Shown here in pieces: positions 7,545 to 34,281 of a DNA stretch of 47,200 bases (within the stretch, counting starts at the first letter, position 1; each line of letters starts with the position of its first letter). The notes beneath the pieces were generated by a model, which was not told the DNA's origin, made no database searches, and saw only the letters and a list, made by a program, of their open reading frames with translations. This DNA is from Sphingobacteriales bacterium (lineage in GTDB: Bacteria > Bacteroidota > Bacteroidia > Chitinophagales > Chitinophagaceae), in assembly GCA_027491165.1 (NCBI GenBank), contig JAIXWS010000106.1, positions 1 through 47,200 on the forward strand, read 5' to 3'. The position numbers and the translations under genes were made by a program.

Positions 7545-8120
7545 TTATTTTGCCAATTCGTATGTCTCTTCCTCATCCCAACGGCCATACCACCAGCCTT
7601 CTTCTGCTATTTGGATATTGGTTTCCAAAGCTCCTGTTGTTCCTAAAAACGCTAAAGCTTCTTGCTCAGAGCTATGTTCGTTCAATTCTAAAACCACTAC
7701 AAAATAATCATCTGTTTGGCGTGGGTGAAAAATATGTTTTTTGACACCCGGCATGATTTGATTTAGGTAGCAATAAGTCAACACCATACCCACCGCAGCA
7801 AACAATACCGTAAGTTCAAATACGATAGGCATAAATGCGGGCAAAGACCAATTAGGCTTTCCACCAAAATTAATGGGCCAGTCTGAAGTGAAAATCCAAG
7901 ACATGAAACCAACCGCCGTGCTCGTGCCCGTCAATCCAAAGATAAAACCAGCAACGTGTAAATCTGTTTCTTTCAAACCCATTGCTACATCCAATCCATG
8001 AACAGGGAAAGGCGTGTATACATCGTGTAATTTATAACCGCTGTGGCGCACTTTATCTACTGCTGGAAATAAGGTATCCTCAGTATCGTAGCAAGCAACC
8101 GCAAATTTTTTTATAGCCAT
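7545..8120 (-). CDS. actD: Alternative complex III subunit ActD (DUF3341)
   Basis: A 191-residue protein of the DUF3341/ActD family. It has a soluble N-terminal part (DVYTPFPVHGLD, a family signature), two membrane helices near residues 55-80 and 95-120, and an acidic C-terminal region ending in GRWDEEETYELAK. It is a structural membrane subunit of ACIII with no cofactor. Gene order and motif support the call. A short TTTTCAT tandem repeat (minus strand) lies just upstream of the start. Confidence 0.92.
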   Translation of the reverse strand: MAIKKFAVACYDTEDTLFPAVDKVRHSGYKLHDVYTPFPVHGLDVAMGLKETDLHVAGFIFGLTGTSTAVGFMSWIFTSDWPINFGGKPNWSLPAFMPIVFELTVLFAAVGMVLTYCYLNQIMPGVKKHIFHPRQTDDYFVVVLELNEHSSEQEALAFLGTTGALETNIQIAEEGWWYGRWDEEETYELAK

Positions 8121-8131
8121 TGTATTGTCAA

Positions 8132-8152
8132 ATGAAAAATGAAAAATGAAAA
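8132..8152. repeat. Three tandem copies of a 7-bp unit between actC and actD
   Basis: ATGAAAA is repeated three times head to tail (plus-strand reading), starting 12 bases upstream of the actD start codon. On the minus strand it reads TTTTCAT. A slippage-prone tract in a translation-initiation region could tune actD expression, but it may be incidental. Confidence 0.6.
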
Positions 8153-8201
8153 AGAGGATTCTTTCGAAATCGTTTTTCTGTTTTACGTTTAGTGTTTATT
8201 G

Positions 8202-9632
8202 TTAGTGATGACTGTTCTCGTGAACAAATTCTTCTAATGATTTCTCATCTTCTTTAGCCATATCTCTCTTATAATTATCTCCTGATGTCTTCAATACAAA
8301 CTTAATCTCGGCTACAGCAACTACAGGGAAATACTTTGCAAACAAGAAGAAGCATGTAAAGAACAAACCGAATGTACCTATGTAGAATCCTACCTCTGGC
8401 CAAGTGGGGCTATAGTAAGTCCAGCTTCCAGGCAAGTAATCTCTATACAGAGAAGTAACGATAATTACAAAACGCTCAAACCACATACCGATATTTACCA
8501 CAATAGACATGATGAAAGTAAAAGGAATGTTACGGCGTAATTTCTTGAACCAAAACAACTGTGGAGAAACCACGTTACAAGTCATCATCGCCCAATAGCT
8601 CCACCAATAAGGGCCAATAATACGCCAGTTAAAAGCATCCTGCTCATAAACAACTTGGCTGTACCAAGCCATAAACAATTCAGTTAAATAGGCAACCCCA
8701 ACGATTGAACCGGTCAAAACAATTACTTTATTCATTGCTTCAATATGGCCCAAAGTGATATACTCTTCAAGACTCAAGATTTTACGCACCAAGATCAACA
8801 AGGTTTGTACCATCGCAAAACCAGAGAAAATCGCACCAGCAACGAAGTAAGGAGGGAAGATTGTTGTGTGCCAACCAGGAATAACAGATGTTGCGAAGTC
8901 AAAAGATACAATCGTATGTACCGAAAGCACAAGTGGTGTAGAAAGACCCGCCAATACTAAGGACAATGACTCGAAACGTTGCCAGTTTTTAGCAGTACCG
9001 GTCCAGCCAAATGAAGCCAAACCATAGGCACGTTTACGGAACTTGGTTTTGGCACGATCACGAATCGTAGCAAAATCAGGTACAAGACCAGAATACCAGA
9101 ACAAAAGCGAAACGGTAAAATAAGTAGATATCGCAAATACGTCCCAAAGAAGTGCTGAGTTAAAATTGGGCCATAATGGACCACGTGTGTTCGGATAAGG
9201 CAATACGAACATCGCATCCCAAACACGACCCATATGGAAGATCGGGAATTGACCTGCACACATTACCGCAAAGATCGTCATCGCCTCAGCAGCACGGTTT
9301 ACACCGGTACGCCAACCTTGGCGGAAGATTAAAAGAATCGCAGAAATCAATGTACCGGCATGACCAATACCTACCCACCATACGAAATTGGTGATATCCC
9401 AACCCCATCCTACAGTGCGGTTAATACCCCAAACACCGATACCGAAATATACCTCCCAAAATACCGAAAAGGCACCAAAGCCCAACAATATCAGTGAGAT
9501 AAAAAATCCGATGTACCACATTTTGCCCGGCTTCTTTTCAATAGGGCTAATAATATCCTCGGTTACTTGGCGATAGGTTTTATTCCCATCAACCAACGGC
9601 TCGCGAACTATGGATTCGTACTTTAAGTGCAT
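8202..9632 (-). CDS. actC: Alternative complex III NrfD-like membrane subunit ActC
   Basis: A 476-residue membrane protein of the NrfD/PsrC family with about 10 hydrophobic segments. In ACIII this subunit carries the quinol-binding site near the periplasmic side and contributes a proposed proton path. Typical stretches are seen: NFVWWVGIGHAGTLISA, FPIFHMGRVWDAMF and LSVHTIVSFDFATSVIPGWH. It begins 85 bases after actB in the same operon. Confidence 0.95.
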   Translation of the reverse strand: MHLKYESIVREPLVDGNKTYRQVTEDIISPIEKKPGKMWYIGFFISLILLGFGAFSVFWEVYFGIGVWGINRTVGWGWDITNFVWWVGIGHAGTLISAILLIFRQGWRTGVNRAAEAMTIFAVMCAGQFPIFHMGRVWDAMFVLPYPNTRGPLWPNFNSALLWDVFAISTYFTVSLLFWYSGLVPDFATIRDRAKTKFRKRAYGLASFGWTGTAKNWQRFESLSLVLAGLSTPLVLSVHTIVSFDFATSVIPGWHTTIFPPYFVAGAIFSGFAMVQTLLILVRKILSLEEYITLGHIEAMNKVIVLTGSIVGVAYLTELFMAWYSQVVYEQDAFNWRIIGPYWWSYWAMMTCNVVSPQLFWFKKLRRNIPFTFIMSIVVNIGMWFERFVIIVTSLYRDYLPGSWTYYSPTWPEVGFYIGTFGLFFTCFFLFAKYFPVVAVAEIKFVLKTSGDNYKRDMAKEDEKSLEEFVHENSHH

Positions 9633-9717
9633 AATTGCTTTTTATTTTTTATTGGCGACTCTTAAAACTATTTTAATCATCGCTTGTCAATGTGTGCTAA
9701 ATCTTTTAAAAAATCTT

Positions 9718-12700
9718 TTATTTCGAATACTTTTCGATCAACTTGCTTTTATTGACCATCATATCGTCTTTGCTTTTGGCAACTACTTTATCTGCGTTTC
9801 TAATTTTAGAAAGGTAGTTTACGTTAGGCAATACGTGTAATTGCTCCAATACATAGAACATACGTTCCTTATCTTCGCTATGACGGATTTTGTAAATTTC
9901 GCTTTCTGGGTCATTTGCGTTACCAAATTTGATACTGTTAGAAGCACAAGCTTGTTGACAAGCCGTTTTCACTGCGTCTCCTTTAAATGGCTCACCCGCT
10001 TTTTTAGCTTCTAACTTGCCTGCTTGTAAACGCTGTACACAGAAAGAACATTTCTCCATCACACCACGGCTACGAACGGTAACGTCTGGGTTTAACACCA
10101 TGCGCGTCAAATCATCATTCATATCGTCACGACGACCGTCTTCGTACAAGTTATCATCGAAGCAATCTGCACCATTCCAATCCATCCAGTTAAAGTGACG
10201 TACTTTATATGGGCAGTTGTTAGCGCAATATTTAGTACCAATACAACGGTTGTAAGTCATTTGGTTTAAACCTTCTGAACTATGGCTGGTTGCATTAACA
10301 GGGCAAACGTTTTCGCAAGGTGCGTTATCACAATGCTGACACATCATGGGCTGGAAAACAGTTTGAACGCTATCTGGATCGTTTGGATTACCGCTGAAAT
10401 AACGATCAATACGAATCCAATGCATTTCCTGTGCTTTTAAAACGTGTGTTTTACCAACAACAGAAATGTTATTCTCTGCTTGACAAGCAATCACACAAGC
10501 CGCACAACCCGTGCAGGTATTCAAGTCAATAGACATTCCCCAATGGATGGCTTCGTGACTTGGTTTTTCGGTATGATCAGGGTATAGTGTTCCTTCGTCA
10601 CGGAATTTCGCATCCATTTCAGGATCATAGCCTTTAGAGGGTGCGTCATGGTGTTCCCAAGGCTTAGTAGTATAATGACCAATTTCTGCATAACGCTCTT
10701 TAAGCAATGCTTCTGGATCTTTACTAAACTCTTCAAGCGTATATTCGTGAATGATGGCACGGCCTTCGTAGCTATGATGCGTTTGTGTAATCGCAACTTC
10801 ATGACGAGAGCTGTCTGGAGTAATTTTTATAGCGGTATTTGCATAATCAAATGTTTGACTGCTGGTATTGAAACGCACAAAGGGGAAGGCGTTTTTACCA
10901 CCTATCAATTTGCCGTTTTTGTCTACGCCACTAGCTGCAGCACGACCAACACCTTTATCGCGGCCATAACCAAATGCAATGGCAACAACATCATTGTGCA
11001 TACCAGGAACAACCACTATGGGCAACAAAATCTCTTTGTTGTTCCAAGTAATTTTAGCTTGTATTTTATTGGCCTCAACTTCAGTTATTGAAGTGAGTTC
11101 TGCGTCAAATTTTTCCTTTGCAGTCTTTGGCGACATACAAATATAGTTGTCCCAAGTAGCCTTTGTAATCGGATCGGGCATTTCTTGCAACCAAGGGTTG
11201 TTACTCCAAGAGCCCCCGCGTCCAATGGCCACAGTAGGATAAAGCACCAATTCCATTTCAGAAGCTTTTGGTGCTGCTGCAATAGCAGCAATTGCTGCAG
11301 ATACATTACCCGCAAAAGATGCACCACCAACACTCATTGTTGCTGGCTCATAAACACCATTTTGTAAAGCAGCATCAAAAGCTGATTGTCCACCCAATTT
11401 TGCTGTCCAATAATTAGACCACATCGTTTGGTAGCTCGTTGAATCACCAGACCAAATCAATAAACTATCTTGAAAAGATCTCGTTTTGAACAAAGGGGCG
11501 ATTGAAGGCTGCATAAAGCTGTAGTAGCCCGTTTTGGGCTCGGCATCACCCCAACTCTCCAACCAATTGTTGTCTGGTGTAACGAGCTTTGATTTTTGTG
11601 CGGTTTCATCCATTCTGTCTGCAAAAGAAACAGAAAGGGCCACTTTTGATAATCCTGCAATAAACTTATCGGCTTCGCAATAATCGTAAGCAGGATTGAC
11701 ATCGTGCATCAATAATGCGCCAACTTTATCGGCATTCATATCGGCAACAAGGTTAACCATATCGGCATCGATACCTTGTTTGTAATGACTTTCTACAGCC
11801 CAGTTAATCGTAGTGCCATTAGCGCCAATTGCACTGTTGATAGCGTTAACCACTAGCTGAACATTTTTATCATTGCTTCCGCAAACGACAAGGCCGTTTC
11901 CTTTTTTAAGATCGGCTGCCGCTTTGTTCAGCAATTCATTTAAATTTTTTCCTAGGTTGGGCGCTGTTCCGTTTGCTATTAATGCATACAAAGCAGCGGC
12001 TACTTTACCCAATTCCGAAGGGCGACAAGTAGCACGATAATCAGCTGCTGCACCAGAAAGAGTATGTGTTGGCTCAATTTGGTAGTGACGCGACATGCTC
12101 AAATGTTTTGCGTTCACTTTACGGCCAGCACTATATTGTTTTGAAAATTCAATTGGAGACAACCAAGTGCCTAAGAAATCGGCGTCAAGGCTAACAATTG
12201 TTTTGGCTTGATCAAAATGATAGGAAGGCAATGATTTTTTGCCATAGCTTTCACTGTTGGCCAACAACATTCCTGAATAAGAAATAGCATCGTACGTAAC
12301 GTGTTTTGCGTTGGGATATTTTGCCAGGAATTTACCAACAACCTCTTTAGTAGTTGGACTAATGATTGTAGAAGTCAATAGGTAAATAGTCTTACCGCTC
12401 GCGGCAGACAAACCCTCGCTTACCATTTTGTCAATATTGGTAAAGGTTTCTTCTTTACCATTGGCCATTGGCTGGCGAAGACGAGTTTTATCATACAAAT
12501 TCAAAACGGCCGCCTGTACACGCGCAGAAGTTGAACCTCCTGTGATGGAAGATTTTGTATTACCGTCTAATTTGATCGGACGACCTTCGCGTGTTTTTAC
12601 CACTACAGCACAATAATCACCGCCATCTACAAAAGTTGATGCATAATAATTGGCTATACCAGGCTGTATATCTTCGGGTTTGATGGCATAAGGGATTACC

Positions 12701-31170: not shown

Positions 31171-32118
31171 ATGTCCTCTACTGTAGCTTTGGTGATCATT
31201 TACAATCATCGATATGATAAAAATATTGACATTTTGGAGTCGATTTATGCAAATCGATTCAGCAATATTTTCCATATTGTTCCCTTTTACGATGGAGACA
31301 AAAAAAATGTAATTCCGGTTTATGAGAATTCCTTTTACTTTCAAGGATACTTAGTACAAGCCTTTTCTCGATACTTCAGAAAAGAATTTGAACACTATTT
31401 TTTTGTTGCGGACGACATGATGATTAACCCCCTAATCAATGAGAACAGCTACAAAGCGCAGCTAAAAATTAATGCACAAGAATCTTATTTCCCAGAAATA
31501 GTAAGCTTACACAATTTGCCCTACAAATGGCGGAGAACACAAGATGCAGTAGAATATAACCCTAAACTACAAGGCGTTGAGAGTAGCAAAGAAATGCCCT
31601 CTTATCAAGAGGCCGAATTGCTTTTTTCAAAATTAGGATTCGAGGTAAAACCCCTTTTGTATAAAGACGTTTACTCGGCAAAAAAGAAAATCGTTTATGA
31701 GCTCAGCAAGCTTAAGGGTGCAAATAGTGTTGCTGAAATTGTACGACTATTGATAAAGCATTTTAAAGGCGTTTTCAAAAAACAATATTGCACATTAAAC
31801 TATCCCTTAGTGGGCGGCTACTCTGATATTTTTGTTGTTTCGGCTAACTGTATCCATAAATTTATGCACTATTGTGGGGTATTTGCTGCTACAGAATTGT
31901 TTGTAGAATTAGCGATACCCACTGCTTTAGTTTTAGCCACTTCTGATATTAGAACAGAGTCTGAGGTTGCGCTAAAAGGTAAGGCAATGTGGACTGAGGA
32001 AGATTACAAAATAATAGCCCCTTATAATAACAACCTTGCAGCTCTTACAGAAAACTTCCCCAAAGAGCACCTTTATTTACACCCCATAAAACTTTCGAAA
32101 TGGCAAACAGCGCTTTAA
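31171..32118 (+). CDS. Glycosyltransferase-like protein, possibly equivalent to the C-terminal half of STELLO
   Basis: A 315-residue cytoplasmic protein with no signal peptide. It starts with a nucleotide-sugar-type alternating strand/helix pattern (VALVIIYNHR, NIFHIVPFYDG). An acidic pair Asp81-Asp82 sits in YFFVADDMMINP, placed like a DxD metal/sugar-nucleotide motif of GT-A enzymes. Near the end, DIFVVSANCIHKFMHYCGVF (219-238) and ELAIPTALVLA resemble the later acceptor-side part of eukaryotic STELLO proteins as I remember them. Its stop overlaps the start of the DUF288 gene by 19 bases, so the products are made together. Specific function is unknown; glycosyltransferase fold is inference. 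Confidence 0.6.
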   Translation: MSSTVALVIIYNHRYDKNIDILESIYANRFSNIFHIVPFYDGDKKNVIPVYENSFYFQGYLVQAFSRYFRKEFEHYFFVADDMMINPLINENSYKAQLKINAQESYFPEIVSLHNLPYKWRRTQDAVEYNPKLQGVESSKEMPSYQEAELLFSKLGFEVKPLLYKDVYSAKKKIVYELSKLKGANSVAEIVRLLIKHFKGVFKKQYCTLNYPLVGGYSDIFVVSANCIHKFMHYCGVFAATELFVELAIPTALVLATSDIRTESEVALKGKAMWTEEDYKIIAPYNNNLAALTENFPKEHLYLHPIKLSKWQTAL

Positions 32119-33101
32119 AAAAATACATTGTTATTACGTCGATATTCGCACCCACAGAAGCTGTTCTTGCATTTGCAAAAATGAAAGACTATACTTTAGT
32201 GGTGGTGGGTGATAAAAAATCTCCTGCAAACTGGAGTTGTGACAACGTGATTTATCTTTCTGTTGAAAAACAAAACGAGATGGGTTATGCACTGAATGAT
32301 GCGCTTCCTTACAATCATTATAGCCGAAAAATGATTGGCTATTTATATGCCATCAGCCAGGGCGCCGACCTTATTGTAGATACCGATGATGATAATATAC
32401 CTAAAGACAACTGGGTCTTTCCAGAGTTTGAGGGCGAATTTGATTTGCTAGCAGGCAATCTAGGCTTTGTCAATATTTATCAACTCTATACCGACAAAAA
32501 AATATGGGCGCGGGGATTGCCTTTGCGACTCATTAATACCACATTCGAACTTGAAAAAGACATTGCGACAGCAAAATGCACCGTAGGGCTTTGGCAGGGC
32601 CTTGCCGACGAAGATCCAGATGTAGATGCTATCTACAGGCTTACTAGTGATGAGCCTTGCTATTTTAACCAGCGCGCACCCCTTGTGTTAGACAAAGGCA
32701 CCATTAGTCCTTTTAATACCCAAAACACAGCCATTTGTAAAGAGCTTTATCCCTTAATGTACTTACCTACATTTGTTACCTTTCGGTTTACAGACATTTT
32801 ACGCGGCTTGGTTGCTCAACCTTTGATGTGGCATTATGGTTATCAATTAGGCTTTCTAGACGCAACCGTTATTCAAAAAAGAAACCCACACGATTACTTC
32901 AAAGATTTTCTTTCAGAAATACCTATGTACCAGCATACCGAAAAGGTGATTGAACTTTGCCACAGTGCTATTCAACCAGGCTTGAGCCTTTCGGAAAATT
33001 TGTACAAAATATATGAGGCCTTGTGCGCTCAGGGTATTGTGGAAGAGAGAGAGTTAGAAACACTAAGGGTGTGGTTATCTGAATTAAAAATGGTGTCTTA
33101 A
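32100..33101 (+). CDS. STELLO/DUF288-family putative glycosyltransferase
   Basis: A 333-residue protein with the DUF288 signature: GYALNDALPYNHYSRKMIGY (61-80), then LIVDTDDDN (91-99) as the acidic metal/nucleotide site, WARGLPL (136-142), and QGLADEDPDVDAIYRLT (166-182). In plants STELLO proteins are Golgi proteins needed for cellulose synthase assembly; the bacterial members are uncharacterised. There is no membrane segment or signal peptide here. ATG at 32100 overlaps the previous gene by 19 bases. The final codons and stop lie inside the terminator stem. A role in glycan building is inferred from family only. Confidence 0.82.
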   Translation: MANSALKKYIVITSIFAPTEAVLAFAKMKDYTLVVVGDKKSPANWSCDNVIYLSVEKQNEMGYALNDALPYNHYSRKMIGYLYAISQGADLIVDTDDDNIPKDNWVFPEFEGEFDLLAGNLGFVNIYQLYTDKKIWARGLPLRLINTTFELEKDIATAKCTVGLWQGLADEDPDVDAIYRLTSDEPCYFNQRAPLVLDKGTISPFNTQNTAICKELYPLMYLPTFVTFRFTDILRGLVAQPLMWHYGYQLGFLDATVIQKRNPHDYFKDFLSEIPMYQHTEKVIELCHSAIQPGLSLSENLYKIYEALCAQGIVEERELETLRVWLSELKMVS

Positions 33102-33115
33102 AAGACACCATTTTT
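33086..33115. terminator. Bidirectional terminator containing the STELLO-like gene's stop codon
   Basis: A 14-bp stem (33086-33099 with 33102-33115). Its left arm encodes the last residues (Lys-Met-Val-Ser) of the plus-strand gene, and the TAA is in the loop. The same hairpin ends 3 bases before the stop of the arginase-fold gene on the other strand, so one element serves both units. Confidence 0.85.
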
Positions 33116-33117
33116 GT

Positions 33118-34281
33118 TTATCCACGTTCTTGTATGCGCATCCAGCGCTCCGGAATTTCATTTTCGCTAGCCTGTAAATAATCATTATAACTACAGGGTT
33201 CAAAATCTCCATTGGGCAATTGCATCCACCAACGATTGCTGCGCTTACTTTTCAAAAACAAGATGTCGTTTCCCGTAAATTGTAGATGATATTCTACGAA
33301 CTCATTTTTATCACTTAATGGCGCTTCGTTTTTACGCAAAAAATATCCATCAACAAAATACCAAATCATTTGCGCCGCCAGCATTGCCGTCATGTTGTCC
33401 TTGTCCTTTCGTTCATCAAAGCCATAGAGGCCAAAGGAAGTCAATTCACTACTCATGCCTGCATAGCGCGCCAGAAGACAAGACTCGTCGCCAGCAAGGC
33501 CATTAGGGCTACCCATTTTATTGATTGGTGCATCACTGTATTTAACCGCATTCAAATCGAAACTGAACAAATGGGTGTTGCGCAAAACGGGTTCCATATC
33601 TTCAATCTGTTCCTTCACCCTGCCCAGCCTGAAAAAGTCGAAACGAATTTTATCAAGCGTTTCAAGCATCAATGGATTAACAAAATAGCTTTGAAAGCCT
33701 ATGTGGCTATAGTGCCCAACAAAATTAGGGCTTCCTGTGAGCATCTCCATTAAAAAGCTGCGAGAAGTGGCGCTTTCTGTTTCGTCCAAATCCACCAACA
33801 TATCCACCACCGCTGCATTAATAATTTTTTCCGACGATTTAAAAACATGGTATTGCTCTAAAGTCAAATCGTGGCTGCCTCCTAACACAATGACAATTTT
33901 ACCCGCCAAGTGCAGCTCTTGTAATACCATTCGGAGCGCCGCTCGCGTATCGTCTAGTGTTGCCCCTTGCAGGATATTGCCCGCATCAAATATTTTGATG
34001 TTAGGGTGCCAGTTGTACAGCTTATACAATTGTTCGCGAATGGCATCGGGCGCATCGCTATAATGTTTGCCGCTATCCAGATCACCCCGCGTTTCACCAC
34101 AACCCACAAGTACAATATCGGCTGCCTCAAAATGAAAAGAATCTGCCGTGGCAAATTCTATTTGTGCCCCCCACTGCAATGACGCAAATAAACTTTGGTC
34201 AATGGTTTCGGCATAGTGAATAGGGGCAAAAAAAGATCGTAAATCTTGCATCATGCTACAAAAATAACTTTTTTGTTCCAA
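33118..34281 (-). CDS. Arginase/formimidoylglutamase-fold protein with altered metal site
   Basis: A 387-residue protein of the ureohydrolase fold. Of the six manganese ligands of arginase, four are kept: His137 (GGSHD), Asp160, Asp164 and Asp242. The His of the DAHxD motif is Leu162 (DMLVD), and the second Asp of SxDxDxxDP is Asn244 (SFDLNAV). A binuclear Mn site is therefore unlikely, and the usual hydrolase activity doubtful. Residues ~320-387 are an extra C-terminal domain (SNRWWMQLPNGDFEPCSY). The start is uncertain: Met1, Met10 or Met11 are possible, and a TATTTTTG box at 34259-34266 (minus strand) lies within the longer version. Related proteins are common in Bacteroidota, annotated as formimidoylglutamase. 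Confidence 0.8.
   Translation of the reverse strand: MEQKSYFCSMMQDLRSFFAPIHYAETIDQSLFASLQWGAQIEFATADSFHFEAADIVLVGCGETRGDLDSGKHYSDAPDAIREQLYKLYNWHPNIKIFDAGNILQGATLDDTRAALRMVLQELHLAGKIVIVLGGSHDLTLEQYHVFKSSEKIINAAVVDMLVDLDETESATSRSFLMEMLTGSPNFVGHYSHIGFQSYFVNPLMLETLDKIRFDFFRLGRVKEQIEDMEPVLRNTHLFSFDLNAVKYSDAPINKMGSPNGLAGDESCLLARYAGMSSELTSFGLYGFDERKDKDNMTAMLAAQMIWYFVDGYFLRKNEAPLSDKNEFVEYHLQFTGNDILFLKSKRSNRWWMQLPNGDFEPCSYNDYLQASENEIPERWMRIQERG

Follow-up and report, generated by a model that had tools for sequence, protein, structure and literature searches.

The window analysed here, 47,200 nucleotides of contig JAIXWS010000106.1 (positions 1 to 47,200, forward strand) from the Sphingobacteriales bacterium assembly GCA_027491165.1, contains two overlapping open reading frames, ORF1 and ORF2, that probably form a two-gene furanose unit in which ORF2 makes a nucleoside diphosphate (NDP)-furanose and ORF1 transfers its sugar, with two mutase types, unrelated to each other, exchanging beside ORF1. 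In some relatives, ORF2 is exchanged for a gene resembling UDP-galactopyranose mutase (UGM), a mutase family with a flavin cofactor, and we argue mainly from this exchange that ORF2 is a mutase and that ORF1 uses a furanose donor. New here are the unannotated candidate transferase family represented by ORF1, its coupling to a STELLO-like protein of GT75 type, and the exchange between that protein and a UGM-like enzyme. Residues of ORF2 are compared with those of MtdL, a GT75 enzyme that, like Hyg20, interconverts guanosine diphosphate (GDP)-L-fucopyranose and GDP-L-fucofuranose (PMC9937993).

31171..32118, plus strand: ORF1, 315 amino acids, ATG start; predicted GT-A-fold protein nearest to GT31 structures, proposed furanosyltransferase
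32100..33101, plus strand: ORF2, 333 amino acids, ATG start; predicted GT75-type NDP-pyranose-mutase fold, STELLO/DUF288-like, proposed mutase
32100..32118, plus strand: 19-nucleotide overlap of the ORF1 end and the ORF2 start, exact in 7/10 junctions checked
31411..31416, plus strand: ORF1 Asp81-Asp82, xDD replacing DxD; proposed metal/nucleotide site, invariant in 18/18 alignment rows
31906..31908, plus strand: ORF1 Glu246 in LFVExAIPTAL; candidate catalytic base, invariant in 18/18 rows
32080..32082, plus strand: ORF1 His304 of HPxKLSxW; candidate metal ligand, lost only in locus L029 (broken frame)
32379..32396, plus strand: ORF2 DTDDDN, residues 94-99; D96-D98 and N99 correspond to MtdL D109-D111 and N112
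32511..32513, plus strand: ORF2 Arg138, corresponding to MtdL Arg159 (the arginine proposed as nucleophile), 21/21 homologues
32619..32621, plus strand: ORF2 Asp174, corresponding to MtdL Asp195, 21/21
32793..32795, plus strand: ORF2 Asp232, corresponding to MtdL Asp260 (proposed base), 21/21
32874..32876, plus strand: ORF2 Gln259, at the position of the MtdL Mn ligand His287, Gln in 21/21

An earlier, sequence-only reading of this locus had noted two plus-strand genes overlapping by 19 bases, the motifs D94-T-D-D-D-N99, WARGLPL and QGLADEDPDVDAIYRLT in ORF2, and D81-D82 together with DIFVVSANCIHKF...ELAIPTALVLA in ORF1, and we recovered all of these. Neither frame is a chance one, because ORF2 matches the Pfam family STELLO (PF03385) as well as MtdL, and ORF1 has relatives in 16 loci.

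The relatives of ORF1 come from a single pattern scan run over the genome_contigs collection; because it used ORF1 patterns alone, it was blind to the partner gene. The 16 loci from other genomes (L014 and L024 denote a single locus, counted once) show 34-51% identity over the best tblastn segment and stem mostly from Bacteroidota, with one from a Lentisphaerota bin. ORF2 adjoins ORF1 on the same strand in 11/16 of them, ten in the order ORF1-ORF2 and one in the order ORF2-ORF1. No ORF2 match at E<=0.001 was found in the remaining five ORF1 genomes (L017, L020, L021, L022 and L028), whose completeness is unknown, and all five carry at ORF1 a gene of one shared cluster that is UGM-like. This gene lies directly downstream of ORF1 in four of them, with an overlap of 10 nucleotides (L020) or 22 nucleotides (L021) or a gap of 4 or 13 nucleotides (L022, L028) according to longest-ORF calls; in L017 it lies upstream, with one gene in between. 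The flanks examined of the ORF2 loci contain no UGM-like gene (0/11), nor does the window locus. The Fisher test for 5/5 versus 0/11 gave p = 2e-4 if the loci are independent, and p = 0.002 was obtained for 4/4 versus 0/8 after similar loci had been roughly merged. Close UGM-like matches (E<1e-100) occurred only in those five of the 22 genomes searched, and in 17/17 genomes, the window's included, ORF1 stands by one of the two types of mutase. The UGM-like protein of L021, the one of the five that was searched, gave UGM in 27/28 PDB matches (best E 2.3e-19), and flavin UGM and ORF2 share neither a sequence match nor a family match. In the ORF1 tree, the rows with a UGM-like partner do not form one clade (4 changes, bootstrap 2-4), which a single origin could still explain.

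The exact 19-nucleotide overlap recurs in L015, L023, L024, L025, L026 and L027, which with the window makes up 7 of the 10 junctions checked, in a table without L029 and L016. In L016 (Flagellimonas onchidii), the order is ORF2-ORF1, which is that of STELLO, with a gap of 4 nucleotides; a 17-nucleotide overlap was rejected there because a likely ATG at 8004 yields the shorter spacing. The sequence-only reading had described the order as reversed relative to STELLO, which is true of the window and not of L016. It had also named two outcomes that would tell against it, namely an unrelated fold for ORF1 and adjacency in this genome only, and neither was found: the genes are neighbours in 11/16 loci of other genomes. 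ORF1 is rare, occurring in 2/396 genomes of the order and in 1/395 of the phylum sample (both counts include the genome of the window), and PF03385 is present in 6/395 genomes of the phylum sample, again including the window's own.

Judged by its predicted structure, the best description of ORF2 is an NDP-pyranose-mutase fold of GT75 type over its full length. The AlphaFold model (pLDDT 93.7) matched MtdL by Foldseek with E 5.8e-23 and TM 0.84, and structural alignment with MtdL covered 332/333 residues (Z 35.4, 2.6 Å, 27% identity), followed by rice UAM2 (Z 25.5) and by the next family at 13.7. MtdL was also found in the PDB sequence search, at E 5e-22 with the single sequence and 5e-44 with the family profile. 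We compared the 20 MtdL positions named in PMC9937993 across 21 ORF2 homologues, leaving out viral L032 (match identical to L031) and L029 (broken frame) and retaining the near-copies L024/L025, L026/L027 and L031/L034; because L018 lacks the N-terminal residues, T13 and I15 were scored 20/20. Window ORF2 is identical to MtdL at 14/20 positions (T13, I15, D40, D109-D111, N112, R159, D195, Q229, R257, D260, R289 and H292), S228 is conservatively changed (Thr in the window, Ser in 15/21 homologues), and N42, S86, D87, R90 and H287 are all changed. The DxD motif (D96-D98) and R138, the conserved (auto)glycosylated Arg, are present in 21/21 homologues; MtdL Asp195, Asp260, Gln229 and Arg257 are each retained in 21/21, and Arg289 and His292 are invariant too.

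Unlike MtdL, the ORF2 family pairs with ORF1 and matches Pfam STELLO, which 20/21 members hit at E<=1, compared to 2/21 for RGP. Window ORF2 scored 41.8 bits against PF03385 (cut-off 27.8, E 8e-11), and this match spans only residues 229-332, corresponding to profile positions 1-105 of 387. The STELLO likeness put forward by the sequence-only reading stands, with a match above the cut-off, but it is partial, and ORF2 as a whole is GT75-like.

ORF1 gave nothing relevant against Pfam, NCBIfam and PDB sequences (NCBIfam was searched with window ORF1 only and returned a single weak unrelated match at E 0.026). The 18-member family, comprising the window and the 16 loci with L017 contributing two sequences, likewise gave nothing relevant against Pfam and PDB, with no Pfam glycosyltransferase family in 18/18, and none of 141 pattern hits in IMG/VR was confirmed as ORF1. 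The ORF1 model (pLDDT 90.8) has a predicted GT-A fold, as the sequence-only reading had anticipated from the acidic pair Asp81-Asp82; D81, D82, D219 and E246 are invariant in 18/18 rows, and H304 is kept except in L029. The best PDB matches of the model were CHSY3, which we take to be GT31-type (Z 15.0, 3.5 Å over 201 residues), B3GalT5 (13.2) and B3GNT2 (12.2), with a lead over other GT-A families of just 1-3 Z units. Although these top matches are beta-1,3-glycosyltransferases of GT31 type, identity is 7-10%, motif II is xDD only in 18/18, and motif V was not recognised by eye (motif II DxD and motif V (E/D)DVxxG as given in PMC11538602). Two tandem ORF1 copies are present in L017 of Mucilaginibacter arboris (8001-8981 and 9183-10190), and a single gene separates them from the UGM-like gene upstream. 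In L029 (7998-8843), the ORF1 frame is broken near the C-terminus and the ORF2 match is split, which suggests a decayed locus or an assembly error in a metagenome-assembled genome.

Because GDP-L-fucose synthase (E<=1e-80) is present in 17/17 ORF2 genomes, the window's included, GDP-L-fucofuranose, formed from GDP-L-fucose, is the leading candidate for the donor used in ORF2-type loci. The synthase was found in 67/118 genomes of the window's phylum sample, and the enrichment had a Fisher p of 1e-4 after four shared genomes had been removed; two of the 17 ORF2 genomes (those of L018 and L030) belong to another or an unstated phylum. In L030, the pair is immediately preceded by GMD and GDP-L-fucose synthase; members of the two clusters to which these genes belong are also found close to the pair in L016 and close to ORF2 in L010. 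In the window genome, the synthase is located on a 3.1-kb contig; no GMD was found on that contig, and it was not sought elsewhere in the genome. As a discriminator of ORF2-type and UGM-type genomes, the synthase was rejected as weak (17/17 versus 3/5). In several loci, the pair is followed by a gene for an AmgK-like kinase that carries a fused RapZ C-terminal domain, and then by one for a MurU-like nucleotidyltransferase (L023 9911-12900, L024 9928-12110, L026 9999-12190 and L029 9984-12166; annotated in L024, cluster mates in the other three), which are possibly a sugar salvage route feeding the pair; the L025 and L027 contigs end too early to tell. AmgK-RapZ was rejected as an obligate partner, being absent at E<=1e-20 from 6/17 genomes and located on another contig in genome G000.

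In the mechanism that we propose, ORF2 would be a metal-dependent NDP-pyranose mutase of GT75 type, in a STELLO-like branch. Following what has been proposed for MtdL, the sugar would pass from the NDP-pyranose to Arg138; after ring opening, Asp232 would serve as the acid/base in closure to the furanose, and NDP-furanose would then leave the enzyme. ORF1, as a GT31-like GT-A glycosyltransferase, would pass the furanose to an acceptor that may be a glycan, lipid or protein, and the translational overlap would hold the two proteins in step. In relatives that lack ORF2, the unrelated flavin UGM-like mutase beside ORF1 would fill its place.

Several observations weigh against the two-gene furanose unit. 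The number of loci is small, and near-copies are among them (L024/L025 and L026/L027). The UGM-like proteins scored 66-82 bits against NCBIfam TIGR00031, whose cut-off is 303.75 (5/5), and because they fall below it we call the gene UGM-like. When the UGM-like query was searched in the 17 ORF2 genomes, the best match had E 9e-22 (G406) and the others E>1e-8 or none; given such weak matches, ordinary UGMs elsewhere in these genomes are possible. For ORF1, the Foldseek TM to B3GNT2 was only 0.41-0.46, and the galactofuranosyltransferase AfGfsA (GT31) is no nearer than other GT-A families, with Z 11.0 compared to 10.4-11.9 for pyranosyltransferases of other families and nucleotidyltransferases. 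Because those families score level, the AfGfsA match is no evidence for furanose use by ORF1. In ORF2, the Mn ligand His287 of MtdL is replaced by Gln and Asp87 by Tyr, both in 21/21 homologues, and the base contacts Asn42 and Ser86 are altered to Lys and His, so neither mutase activity nor GDP use is assured. Because of the Gln in 21/21, we call ORF2 GT75-type and do not file it as a GT75 mutase. GDP-fucose genes are common, and the synthase is also present in 3/5 UGM-type genomes at E<=1e-80, while the AmgK-RapZ and MurU-like genes after the pair could point to another sugar. Plant STELLO is not known to have mutase activity, and the STELLO R271A mutant still complements (PMC4906169).

The changed residues are also what speaks for a different assignment, in which ORF2 has lost mutase activity and is a transferase that either glycosylates itself on Arg138 or modifies an acceptor, with ORF1 as an ordinary pyranosyltransferase acting next. 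MtdL D87N and D87S lack mutase activity, although AtRGP1-3 carry Ser at this position, and GT75 members autoglycosylate (PMC9937993); in addition, some ORF2 homologues stand beside other glycosyltransferases, such as a GT4-like gene in L012. We nevertheless consider this assignment unlikely, because the nucleophile Arg, Asp195, Asp260, Gln229, Arg257, Arg289 and His292 are invariant and the exchange with a UGM-like gene indicates a mutase. That ORF1 and ORF2 are two ordinary surface-polysaccharide glycosyltransferases brought together by chance would fit the GT-A fold of both and the glycosyltransferase or ABC-transporter-like genes near several ORF2 homologues (names partly by eye). It is very improbable given the adjacency across Bacteroidota and the Lentisphaerota bin in both orders, the recurring exact overlap, and the mutual exclusion of ORF2 and the close UGM-like gene in 22/22 genomes.

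The proposal of the sequence-only reading, that a STELLO-type glycosyltransferase is split between ORF1 and ORF2 and works as a heteromer, required a comparison with plant STELLO, for which we used throughout a provisional STELLO1 sequence, not drawn from a database record. STELLO consists of a transmembrane segment, a GT75-related region and DUF288 (PMC4906169). The ORF2 profile matched the N half of the provisional STELLO1 with 162 bits (E 8.7e-52), and by this match and that to PF03385 positions 1-105 ORF2 resembles the GT75-related half; MtdL Gln229, Arg257, Arg289 and His292 are kept in ORF2 and missing in the provisional STELLO1 in the alignment of the MtdL positions. The best place of the ORF1 profile in STELLO1 was 649-701 (E 0.002 for one sequence), and unconstrained MAFFT paired N12/N527, D81-D82/D591-D592 and S218/S668 in order, with N plus DD paired in 6/400 shuffles; the gene order and 4-nucleotide gap of L016 also favour the proposal. 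Against this, the 5.8 bits of the ORF1 profile with the C half, reached by 4/3000 shuffles (2292 of them scored), were exceeded by 3/271 unrelated proteins (182 scored) and thus lie in the range of unrelated proteins, hhalign gave P 0.06, 212/400 shuffles scored as well in global alignment, and DD was paired in 48/400. Pfam STELLO had no ORF1 hit in 18/18, a test of low power in which the provisional C half alone had no hit either. Unlike plant STELLO1/2 (PF03385/DUF288), ORF1 and ORF2 are separate proteins, in opposite order in the window, and PF03385 is not matched at full length. No fused ORF2-ORF1 protein was found among the prokaryotic PF03385 hits (395 and 240 genomes), none of which passes profile position 112 (6 hits in 395 genomes and 8 hits in 240 genomes of the phylum of genome G788), and an ORF1 match within a stretch of about 3 kb was found at only 1/8 PF03385 loci of the latter phylum, G788's own (L050). 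Because each gene occurs without the other, with no ORF2 found in 5/16 ORF1 genomes and no ORF1 in 5/5 ORF2-only genomes tested, the notion of two halves of one enzyme is weakened, and we consider the two-subunit proposal quite unlikely. Its claim that both STELLO halves are encoded separately holds for ORF2 and is not established for ORF1, whose relation to the second half is unproved.

A bolder version of the furanose reading, which we find doubtful, is that ORF1 represents a new furanosyltransferase family that shares ancestry with the second half of STELLO and is supplied with GDP-L-fucofuranose by ORF2, STELLO itself being a fused, partly degenerate mutase-plus-furanosyltransferase. If the link between ORF1 and STELLO is real, the plant pair DD591-592, which is dispensable for growth rescue (PMC4906169), would be a relic of the ORF1 active site. 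The mutant and topology data on STELLO were taken to fit a glycosyltransferase that acts in the Golgi lumen, and the parts of PMC4906169 cited here name no reaction for STELLO. Among the matches listed from the open-licence PMC literature, neither a bacterial STELLO-type protein nor an ORF1-ORF2 pair was the subject of any paper.

Because ORF2 retains most of the MtdL active site beside a candidate transferase, the pair offers a directly assayable bacterial model for plant STELLO. If the two-gene furanose unit is real, ORF1, which has no Pfam hit, would add an unannotated transferase family, the loci would be a clear case of two unrelated mutases swapping beside the same transferase, and L-fucofuranose or another furanose would be predicted in the glycans of these bacteria. 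If STELLO is a fused mutase-plus-furanosyltransferase, its role in cellulose synthase assembly would gain a concrete biochemical hypothesis.

Upstream of ORF1, the window carries a divergent gene that is presumably HflX-like, and the gene downstream of ORF2 is convergent and lies beyond an inverted repeat. Because of this divergent and convergent arrangement, the unit appears to comprise two genes only.

33088..33119, plus strand: inverted repeat (AAATGGTGTCT / AGACACCATTT) with a T-rich tail, spanning the ORF2 stop; noticed by eye as a possible terminator and not among the entries of the terminator pattern scan

Homologues of ORF2 also occur in other settings. G786, the genome of L016, has three of them, and L031-L036 are ORF2 homologues on viral-labelled IMG/VR contigs, where that of L033 belongs to a series of small genes that abut one another. 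In L009 (6588-7595), a 335-amino-acid protein without a Pfam match occupies the place of ORF1 and overlaps the ORF2 homologue by 8 nucleotides, making it a candidate alternative transferase.

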